From contig JAOZHO010000035.1 in the NCBI GenBank assembly GCA_026014875.1, positions 62,001-126,000 of the forward strand: DNA of 64,000 bases, in the 5' to 3' direction. Positions 30,545-33,579 of this stretch are shown here, one piece after another. The notes beneath the pieces are model-generated. The model saw nothing but the letters and a program-made list of their open reading frames with translations, was not told where the DNA came from and did not search any database. Within the stretch, counting starts at the first letter, position 1, and the number at the start of each line of letters is the position of its first letter. Source of the stretch: Candidatus Bathyarchaeota archaeon (GTDB taxonomy: Archaea > Thermoproteota > Bathyarchaeia > TCS64). The position numbers were made by a program, and so were the translations under genes.

Positions 30545-31048
30545 CTAGAGGCTAAGGCGATCCTTCGCTGCTATGGATACCGGGACCCCTACTACGCCCG
30601 CGACGATCATCTGAACCAGGTTGAAGGGGGCCTCGGCCATCGCGGCCCCTAAGCCATACATGAATACTTGAACGATGAAGTAGCCGGAGACCATGACGAG
30701 GGCTCCCACGACCCACGCTATGATCGTCTTGTTGAGGGTCCTAGTCTTGGGGTCCCCCGCTATGATGCCCGCAACGTAGCCCTCGGCCCCCTTGATCACC
30801 GCCGTGAAGATGACCCAGTTGTACCAGCCTCCCAGGAGGTCCGCGAGGCCGGATCCCAGCCCCCCTGCTAGGGCCCCCACGACGGGTCCGAAGATGAGGG
30901 CCGTGGTCATGACGATGGCGTCCCCGAAGTTGAAGTATCCCGAGGTAGCGGGGATGGGGAACGCGAATATCATGGTTGCGACGGTGGCGAGGGCGCCCAT
31001 CACCGCTATGGCTGCTATCTCTTTCGTTCCTAATTTGAATCCACTCAT
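30545..31048 (-). CDS. ECF transporter S component
   Basis: 167 residues with five to six hydrophobic segments. The N-terminal helix carries the alanine-rich pattern AAIAVMGALATVATMIF, followed by the FNFGDAIVMTTALIFGPVVGALAGGLGSGLADLL stretch in two parts, typical of vitamin-uptake S components that dock with EcfT-EcfAA'. The vitamin is not identifiable. It is transcribed after the threonine-synthase fusion gene, which needs PLP, but a GTCTCAT palindrome and a TATA-like TTTTAAATAC separate them, so it has its own promoter. Confidence 0.8.
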   Translation of the reverse strand: MSGFKLGTKEIAAIAVMGALATVATMIFAFPIPATSGYFNFGDAIVMTTALIFGPVVGALAGGLGSGLADLLGGWYNWVIFTAVIKGAEGYVAGIIAGDPKTRTLNKTIIAWVVGALVMVSGYFIVQVFMYGLGAAMAEAPFNLVQMIVAGVVGVPVSIAAKDRLSL

Positions 31049-31133
31049 ATCAATTCCTCTTCCTATTCGGTCTTGTTATAGTTACTACTAATGTATTTAA
31101 AAATATTGTAGTTTCAACTATAGTATATCGTGG

Positions 31134-31193: not shown

Positions 31194-32606
31194 TTACATT
31201 AGGGATTGGAGGTCCTCGAGGGCGTCTAGCACCTTCCTGCCCTTCTCAGTCAGCTCATGATACCTCCTCTTCCCCTCCGCAGAGGAGGCGACGAGCCCCC
31301 TGGACTCCAGGTCCGAGAGGTGCTGATACACGGCTCCCAGGGTCATCGCCTTCCCCAGCTCCTTCCAGAGAGCGTAACCGTATGTCTTCTTCGTCGCTAT
31401 CCGTCTCAGGATTCTCTCCTTGGTTGCGAGCCTGATCCCCAGTCCCGGAGATTTTCTCCTGAGGTTGAGGCTCCGAATGATATCGTTGGTCTTCAGGCCG
31501 CTGCTGGTGATTATGCTCACGACGGTGTCCGAGCCATCGATGACGCCAGCTTCAAGGAGCTCGGGGATGAAGGCCACCGAGGCGGCGCTAGCGGGCTCGG
31601 CGAAGATGCCCTCGTGTCTGGCTATCTCCTTACCGTAATCGATCATGGCGGAGTCCGAGACGGTCACCGAGAGGCCGTCAGATTCTTCGAGGGCTCTCAA
31701 GGCGGCGGCCCCGAACATGGGCTTCGTTACGCGTATCGCAGTGGCGACTGTGTCTCCCGATTCGAGGCTTATCGGCTCCTCGATATGCTTGTTGAACGCA
31801 TCGGCTATTGGGGCGCAGCCCTCCGCCTGGACGCCGATGAGACGGGGTTTCGAGTCGATCTTCCCCGCCTCCTCGAGTTCGGTGAAGCCCTTCCAGAGGG
31901 AGTGGATCGTGACGCCGCTCCCCATCGCGATCGCCACCCAGTCTGGGACGCCTGACTGCTCCACGAGTTCGTATGAGATGGTCTTGATGGCTTCCATGGA
32001 TAGGGGGTTGAGCTCCGTGGTTGCTTGGTACGCACCTGTCTCATCGGCTATCTTCCTCGCCTTCTCGATGGCCACGTCGATTCCATCCCCCGCTTCCTCG
32101 ACGTGGGCGTCCGAGGCGATCATCTGGGCCAGCTTGCCGAGGTCCAGGTCGGCAGGGACTAAGATTCTGCAGGAGACATCCTCCTTTGCGGAGTATGCGG
32201 CGAGGGATGCGCCGTGGTTCCCATTGGTGGCGCAGACGACTGAGTCGAACCCCTTCCCGACGGCGTCTGACATCATCAGGGCTGCGGACCGGTCTTTGAA
32301 TGAGCTCGTGGGGTTCCGGGTCTCATCCTTCAGGTGCAGATTCTTGAGGCCCAGGTGCTCTCCTAGCCTCTCCGCTTTCCAGTATGGTGTGCCCCCTTCT
32401 CCGAGGCTGACCGCCTTCTCTACCCTGGGCATCACCGGAGCGTAGCGCCAGAACGTCAGCGGTCCCTTGAATTGCACCCCTTTGAGGTACTCGGGATCGA
32501 AGGTGTATTCGAGGAATCCCCCGCAGTCCGCGCACCGGCTGTAGCTGCCTTCCCCCGGTGCTTTCTCGTGGCAGCTGCTGCAGCCCAGGACGTATGGGGG
32601 TTCCAT
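31194..32606 (-). CDS. thrC: Threonine synthase fused to a C-terminal PadR-like winged helix
   Basis: About 470 residues. Residues 1-30 form a four-cysteine zinc ribbon (Cys9, Cys12, Cys25, Cys28). Residues 50-385 are a fold-type II PLP enzyme with the cofactor lysine Lys104 in PTSSFKDRSA, the phosphate loop and SSGLK near the end, as in threonine synthase, which converts O-phosphohomoserine to threonine. Residues about 395-470 are a PadR-type winged helix (TYGYALWKELGKAMTLGAVYQHLSDLESRGL; RYHELTEKG). The fusion suggests a DNA-binding enzyme or ligand-sensing regulator. A TATA-like ATGATATAC precedes the ATG at 32606. Confidence 0.8.
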   Translation of the reverse strand: MEPPYVLGCSSCHEKAPGEGSYSRCADCGGFLEYTFDPEYLKGVQFKGPLTFWRYAPVMPRVEKAVSLGEGGTPYWKAERLGEHLGLKNLHLKDETRNPTSSFKDRSAALMMSDAVGKGFDSVVCATNGNHGASLAAYSAKEDVSCRILVPADLDLGKLAQMIASDAHVEEAGDGIDVAIEKARKIADETGAYQATTELNPLSMEAIKTISYELVEQSGVPDWVAIAMGSGVTIHSLWKGFTELEEAGKIDSKPRLIGVQAEGCAPIADAFNKHIEEPISLESGDTVATAIRVTKPMFGAAALRALEESDGLSVTVSDSAMIDYGKEIARHEGIFAEPASAASVAFIPELLEAGVIDGSDTVVSIITSSGLKTNDIIRSLNLRRKSPGLGIRLATKERILRRIATKKTYGYALWKELGKAMTLGAVYQHLSDLESRGLVASSAEGKRRYHELTEKGRKVLDALEDLQSLM

Positions 32607-32706
32607 GTCAGGTAATACTCTTTTACGATGAATGTATATCATTCGCTGCTCCCATCACTCTTTTATTCCCTCCCTCCCACGTGGAAACGGCACCCGGGGC
32701 AACGTG

Positions 32707-33006
32707 ATGAAGGTATCGGAACTCCGCCCAGGCATGGAGCACGTGGACATCAGAGTCACGCTGAAGGCTCTGAACGAGCCCAGGGAGGTTCTCACCAACT
32801 ATGGGATCACCCATAACCTCGTCGACGGGGTGGCCGAGGACGACTCGGGGAGCGTGGGGGTGACCTTCTGGAACGAGAAGATCGAGCTCCTGGAAGGAGT
32901 AGCTGAGGGTAGTTTAGTCGAACTCGGGGACTGCTTCATCACGTCGTTCAAGGGGGCGTTGAGCATCAACATAGGCAGAGACTCTAAGCTAAAGAAGATC
33001 GAGTGA
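32707..33006 (+). CDS. OB-fold nucleic-acid-binding protein (RPA/SSB-like)
   Basis: 99 residues. MKVSELRPGMEHVDIRVTLKAL opens an OB-fold of the RPA/SOSS-B type, with VGVTFWNEKIELLEGVAEGS as the central strands and helix and a basic last strand (INIGRDSKLKKIE). It probably binds single-stranded DNA or RNA. The frame is open to 32632, but the ATG at 32707 starts the fold. It is divergent from thrC and followed 6 bp later by an HD-domain gene. Confidence 0.7.
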   Translation: MKVSELRPGMEHVDIRVTLKALNEPREVLTNYGITHNLVDGVAEDDSGSVGVTFWNEKIELLEGVAEGSLVELGDCFITSFKGALSINIGRDSKLKKIE

Positions 33007-33012
33007 AAACAT

Positions 33013-33579
33013 ATGAGTGAAAAACTCGAAAAATTAGAGAGAATCGTGAGCGAACTCATACCCCCCCACGGAACCCACGGCCTCGAGCACACGATGCGGG
33101 TTTACAGGACATGCATGGCGCTGGGGAAGGCCCTGGGAGCTGACATGTCGATTTTGCTACCGGCTGTCCTGCTCCACGACATTGTGAGGGACGGCGAGGA
33201 CCATGCGTCGGCGAGTTCCGTCAAGGCAGGAGAGATCCTTCGAGACCTCGGCTACACTGAAAAGGCGATAGAGGATATCTCAAAAACCATTGGAGCGCAC
33301 AGCTTCTCAGCCGGGAGGATGCCGGCGTCGCTGGAGGCGAAGATCCTTTCAGACGCTGATAAACTCGACGCGATTGGCGCCCTGGGAGTCTACAGGGCTG
33401 CGATGTATAGTGCGGAGAACGGGAGGCCCTTGGAGGATTATGTCGCTCACTTCTCCGAGAAGCTCCTCACTCTGAAGGATATGATTTTCACGGATGAGGC
33501 GAAGCGCCTAGCCGAATCCAGGCACAAGTTCATGCTCGAGTATCTGGAGCAGATCGATGGCGAACTGAACCCTGGATAG
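33013..33579 (+). CDS. HD-domain metal-dependent phosphohydrolase
   Basis: 188 residues with the HD signature: His in GTHGLEHTMRVY, His-Asp in AVLLHDIVRDG, His in IGAHSFS, and Asp in ILSDADKLDAIGALG. The family hydrolyses nucleotides or phosphomonoesters (YedJ-like). It lies 6 bp after the OB-fold gene, with an AAAACAT leader, and is likely in the same transcript. Confidence 0.8.
   Translation: MSEKLEKLERIVSELIPPHGTHGLEHTMRVYRTCMALGKALGADMSILLPAVLLHDIVRDGEDHASASSVKAGEILRDLGYTEKAIEDISKTIGAHSFSAGRMPASLEAKILSDADKLDAIGALGVYRAAMYSAENGRPLEDYVAHFSEKLLTLKDMIFTDEAKRLAESRHKFMLEYLEQIDGELNPG

Follow-up and report, generated by a model that had tools for sequence, protein, structure and literature searches.

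The closest described systems to the gene analysed here are the bacterial MocR/PdxR regulators, in which a GntR winged helix is joined to a fold-type I aminotransferase domain and which control pdxST or the vitamin B6 uptake operon pdxKU (PMC5320631, PMC11619246). Archaea are stated to lack MocR (PMC5320631), and according to PMC9997740 most B6 transporters have yet to be identified. In a window of 64,000 nucleotides from a Candidatus Bathyarchaeota archaeon (the whole stretch of DNA that was analysed), we found a gene whose product resembles MocR/PdxR in joining a putative sensor derived from a PLP enzyme to a winged helix and, as a functional analogy only, in having predicted operators at pdxS and at genes for PF07155 S components of ECF transporters (henceforth S genes). 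Unlike MocR/PdxR, the archaeal protein has a type II PLP fold, that of threonine synthase (ThrC), and a PadR-like winged helix at its C-terminus, and its family has lost the Schiff-base Lys in most members. Since PLP fold, winged helix and domain order all differ, it is not a member of MocR/PdxR; it would be a convergent counterpart, in which both the PLP enzyme and the winged helix are of another kind. With canonical ThrC it shares the fold, the zinc ribbon and the PLP-contact positions, whereas the fused proteins lack the substrate-site residues and mostly the catalytic Lys, and carry an added DNA-binding domain. With PadR-family repressors it shares a winged helix that scores above the Pfam cut-off, complete with wing and C-terminal helix, and a predicted palindromic operator near the target promoter, but it differs in being fused to an enzyme domain and in the palindrome core, AGTNNNNACT, which we take to be unlike known PadR sites.

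The first-pass annotation, made from the sequence alone, had described one unbroken frame running from a ThrC-like domain into a PadR-type winged helix, with the zinc ribbon and Lys104 in place. Pfam and AlphaFold2 bear this out for a single 470-aa frame with the following features.

31194..32606, minus strand: regulator gene, one open frame of 470 aa with a pseudo-threonine-synthase domain and a PadR-type winged helix
32523..32582, minus strand: N-terminal zinc ribbon, Cys9/12/25/28, kept in canonical and fused proteins
31506..32411, minus strand: aa 66-367, PALP domain of the fold-type II PLP enzymes, with PLP-contact positions retained and canonical ThrC substrate-site positions gone
32295..32297, minus strand: Lys104 codon (AAA) for the Schiff-base residue; the sister lineage and most family members have Arg here, hence a probable reversion
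31200..31436, minus strand: winged helix-turn-helix, aa 391-469, from the PF03551 match and AlphaFold2 secondary structure
31302..31340, minus strand: recognition helix, aa 423-435, with Tyr427-Gln428-His429 invariant in 72/72 clade-1 proteins

The Pfam match to PALP was strong (E 5e-72), and PadR (PF03551) matched aa 399-461 with E 1.2e-9 and 38.5 bits, against a gathering cut-off of 27. Lys104 lies within the motif SSFKDR. An AlphaFold2 model built from 36 sequences (mean pLDDT 88) showed the ThrC fold, a flexible, low-confidence linker at residues 371-393, and a helix-helix-helix-wing-helix arrangement in residues 391-469. The closest solved structures were threonine synthases, all of them, and the nearest named record was from a Bathyarchaeota MAG.

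A misassembly of two genes was ruled out, because the fusion is conserved at full length across the window's order (57-68% identity), across the class (about 50%) and in further families of Thermoproteota, with some copies on single-contig genomes; the first-pass annotation had proposed looking for the fusion in other archaea, and neither a misassembly nor a separately encoded winged helix was seen among the relatives. The genomes compared are mostly MAGs, in which start codons are uncertain. One and two fusion events were indistinguishable (AU test of a single origin, p 0.40).

The architecture is already held in a curated model, NCBIfam NF004170/PRK05638, whose 442-position profile spans both domains end to end and which the window protein matches over positions 4-442 with 345.8 bits, below the 421-bit cut-off. 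The model covers the same two-domain span as the window protein yet is named as an enzyme, "threonine synthase", and its name and shown description are silent on the winged helix and on the active-site loss. In the open-access literature we found no description of a threonine synthase-PadR fusion or of an archaeal B6 regulator. A family labelled threonine synthase that appears to be mostly catalytically disabled should be renamed, which would affect metabolic reconstructions of Bathyarchaeia and other Thermoproteota.

The claim that the enzyme part is a complete biosynthetic threonine synthase did not survive a residue comparison of 86 fused proteins with 18 canonical, unfused ThrCs. Equivalents of Asn197, Ser198 and Arg203 were found in 18/18 canonical proteins and together in 0/86 fused proteins (the window protein has T, E and S at these positions), and the canonical Thr at 128 and 131 was mostly replaced in the fused proteins. 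We take these Asn-Ser...Arg and Thr positions to be the substrate-phosphate contacts of T. thermophilus ThrC. The Schiff-base Lys was replaced in 65 of the 86 fused proteins, by Arg in 48 and otherwise mostly by Leu, Thr, Ile, Met, Val, Ala, Ser or Phe. Largely kept were Asn130, Gly229, Gly231 and Thr367, presumably PLP contacts as in fold-type II enzymes. The window's genome also encodes a canonical ThrC separately, on contig C27. Judged by its residues, the fused protein is a former enzyme from which the canonical ThrC substrate site is gone. The earlier idea of an enzyme that couples threonine or PLP state to transcription thus keeps one half, an apparent DNA-binding protein with a PLP-type pocket, and loses the other, the biosynthetic enzyme. 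A third threonine-synthase-like gene of the same genome (G000:C50:374035-375168; L003, L077) has the lysine motif PTGTFKARG and sits on a long branch.

Lys stood at the Schiff-base position in 21/86 fused proteins, solely in the window's order. In a tree built without the Schiff-base column, these proteins grouped into a single clade (99/94) that is surrounded by Arg lineages and has an Arg protein as its sister; because of this placement, Lys104 looks like a reversion, and the economical reading is that Lys would have been lost at the base of clade 1 and regained once in the window's order. Lys104 in the window's own clade leaves room for some catalysis, which counts against a purely regulatory role. 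A bifunctional protein, that is, an active threonine synthase or other PLP lyase that also binds DNA and uses Lys104 as a competent catalytic residue, would account for the presence of Lys104 in all 21 Lys-type proteins, every one from the window's order, and for the intact state of the other PLP contacts. We nevertheless consider it quite improbable, given that the canonical substrate-site residues are missing from all fused proteins, that the Lys clade is nested among Arg lineages and that a separate canonical ThrC is present; threonine synthase activity in particular is disfavoured by the residue losses and the tree position. It is conceivable, if unlikely, that in the window's order a pseudoenzyme regulator regained the Schiff-base Lys (Arg to Lys) and now binds PLP through a covalent bond, or even converts an amino acid; the aldimine would then be the form in which it senses the PLP/amino-acid state, and the regulator would be returning towards an enzyme.

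The next gene downstream, already recognised in the first-pass annotation as encoding an ECF subunit, is an S component of PF07155 (4.7e-36) and is now the predicted target of the regulator, with candidate control elements between the two genes.

30545..31048, minus strand: gene for the PF07155 S component of an ECF transporter, the predicted target; among solved structures it matches HmpT (4HZU chain S) best
31077..31092, no strand assigned: site 2, operator-like but weaker, at 30 nt from site 1; relatives G007, G013 and G025 likewise have a second site
31094..31106, minus strand: TATA-like stretch ATATTTTTAAATA between both sites, the putative S-gene promoter by sequence reading
31104..31125, no strand assigned: predicted operator 1, TATTGTAGTTTCAACTATAGTA (given on the plus strand), sole match in the 2.5-Mb genome

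The S protein matched HmpT (4HZU_S) with 3e-16 and RibU with 1e-4; in our reading of the alignment, the pocket residues Tyr, Asn and Gln of HmpT align with the S protein, while Glu41 becomes Asp and His84 becomes Lys. Published work found HmpT to carry pyridoxamine (PMC4860826). Besides PdxU and PdxU2/HmpT (PMC9997740), PF07155 includes proteins once assigned to the thiamin precursor HMP (PMC4860826). The window's genome has two PF07155 genes, the downstream one a strong match and the other weak, plus a T component. Most clade-1 loci on which the contig extends far enough have an S gene as the next gene downstream; at clade-2 loci an S gene is divergent from the regulator gene or adjoins it. 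In one family the downstream S gene is followed by an ATPase gene and, by position, T-component-like genes. Lys-type regulators of the window's order for which no adjacent S gene was called are those of G009, G014, G018, G028 and G030.

A palindrome with the consensus TAGTATAGTTNNAACTATACTA lies just upstream of the S gene, at its promoter. With up to 3 mismatches, TAGTATAGTTNNAACTATACTA gave 43 matches in 36 of 44 genomes, against 1 for a reversed-pattern control, and the 2.5-Mb genome of the window holds a single match, at 31104-31125. By gene calls, the site precedes the S gene in 28/30 loci inspected; at a 29th, in G221, a PF07155 match lies where the S gene is expected, and in G233 the S gene follows the regulator. 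In six genomes (G409, G372, G380, G395, G288 and G027) the site stands before an S gene while the regulator is encoded elsewhere, so the link between site and S gene holds in trans as well as in cis. No site within 3 mismatches was found in 8/44 genomes, five of them from the window's order (G009, G010, G016, G028 and G030). Clade 2 has a palindrome of its own, AGCCTATATATAGGCT, found beside the S genes of this clade in several genomes; in G225 it further precedes an S gene that is not linked to the regulator. An earlier pattern, TAWAGTTNNAACTWTA, lacked specificity when 1 mismatch was allowed, its control being about as frequent as the signal, and the 22-mer TAGTATAGTTNNAACTATACTA resolved this. 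A further stretch, GAATGATATACATTC, near the gene's own start looked operator-like by eye and was dropped, as it was not seen upstream of relatives' genes.

The genes kbl and tdh do lie about 5 kb away, as had been noted. The proposed control of these genes, or of the fused gene by its own product, found no counterpart: there was no operator match near tdh/kbl and none upstream of the fused gene itself across 73 clade-1 regions, so that neither tdh/kbl control nor autoregulation is supported in clade 1.

We consider it likely that the fused protein is a one-component regulator derived from threonine synthase, whose PLP-type pocket senses PLP or a PLP-amino-acid adduct and which controls a B6-uptake S gene and, in some genomes, pdxS; very probably, it switches vitamin B6 uptake and synthesis. 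The enzyme-derived domain would bind PLP, or the adduct, as sensor, and the PadR-type winged helix of a dimer would read the AGTNNNNACT palindrome at the S-gene promoter and, in some genomes, also at the pdxS promoter. When PLP is plentiful, binding would block transcription of B6 uptake (and synthesis); repression, rather than activation, is the simplest model because the site coincides with the TATA region or is close to it. Such a protein would be an archaeal regulator of vitamin B6 supply, with no earlier description found, and the S component, whose substrate would be B6, suggests which transporter supplies B6 to archaea without pdxS. Because DNA binding by the fused protein is itself predicted, one might instead regard the winged helix as a structural leftover and assign the operator to another factor. 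This is scarcely credible, since the recognition-helix Tyr-Gln-His (YQH) is invariant across clade 1, the regulator and the S-gene site co-occur in many lineages, and a distant regulator clade comes with a different palindrome.

The link to B6 synthesis comes from pdxS, a gene absent from the window's genome. A clade-1 regulator and pdxS occur together in five genomes. Four of these (G051, G221, G292 and G199) have the operator upstream of pdxS, and G228 has no site there; scores upstream of pdxS differed from those of 27 regulator-free controls (Mann-Whitney p 0.0005). In G048, a clade-2 homologue (Lys to Leu) is divergent from pdxS-pdxT. Presence of pdxS in 5/59 clade-1 genomes against 189/338 others gave a Fisher p of 2e-12, uncorrected for descent, and this association is phylogenetically confounded (p 0.054 within family f26). 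However, pdxS is also missing from many Bathyarchaeia that have no regulator, which counts against the B6 explanation.

These operator positions bear on two further readings of the signal. PF07155 naming history (PMC4860826) and the absence of ThiC from the window's genome and many others would suit a regulator of HMP uptake; this is very improbable, as ThiC is present in many regulator genomes, a distribution that fits poorly, and the operator is found at pdxS. The other reading, in which the pseudoenzyme regulator would respond to threonine, or to an amino acid of the aspartate family, instead of PLP and the S component would move another nutrient, draws on descent from ThrC and on a lineage-specific arrangement in family f11 (L068-L075). 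There the fused gene and canonical thrC are divergently oriented, and several genomes have hom and an ACT-domain gene alongside. We regard this threonine reading as improbable, since no operator match lies upstream of the fused gene, including the thrC-facing intergenic regions of f11, whereas S genes and pdxS do have operators and a regulator homologue adjoins pdxS-pdxT in G048.

Several other neighbours were observed. In the window, OB-fold-like and HD-domain-like genes (by reading; 32632-33579) are divergent from the regulator, and the OB-fold-like gene recurs beside it in G006 and G055. In G055, AIR-synthase-like and 2-phosphosulpholactate phosphatase genes follow the S component (L079 12654-14461). 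Finally, another S-component-like gene adjoins pdxS-pdxT in G292 and G051 (L177 5435-6259 and L178 4437-5306; weak PF07155 matches).
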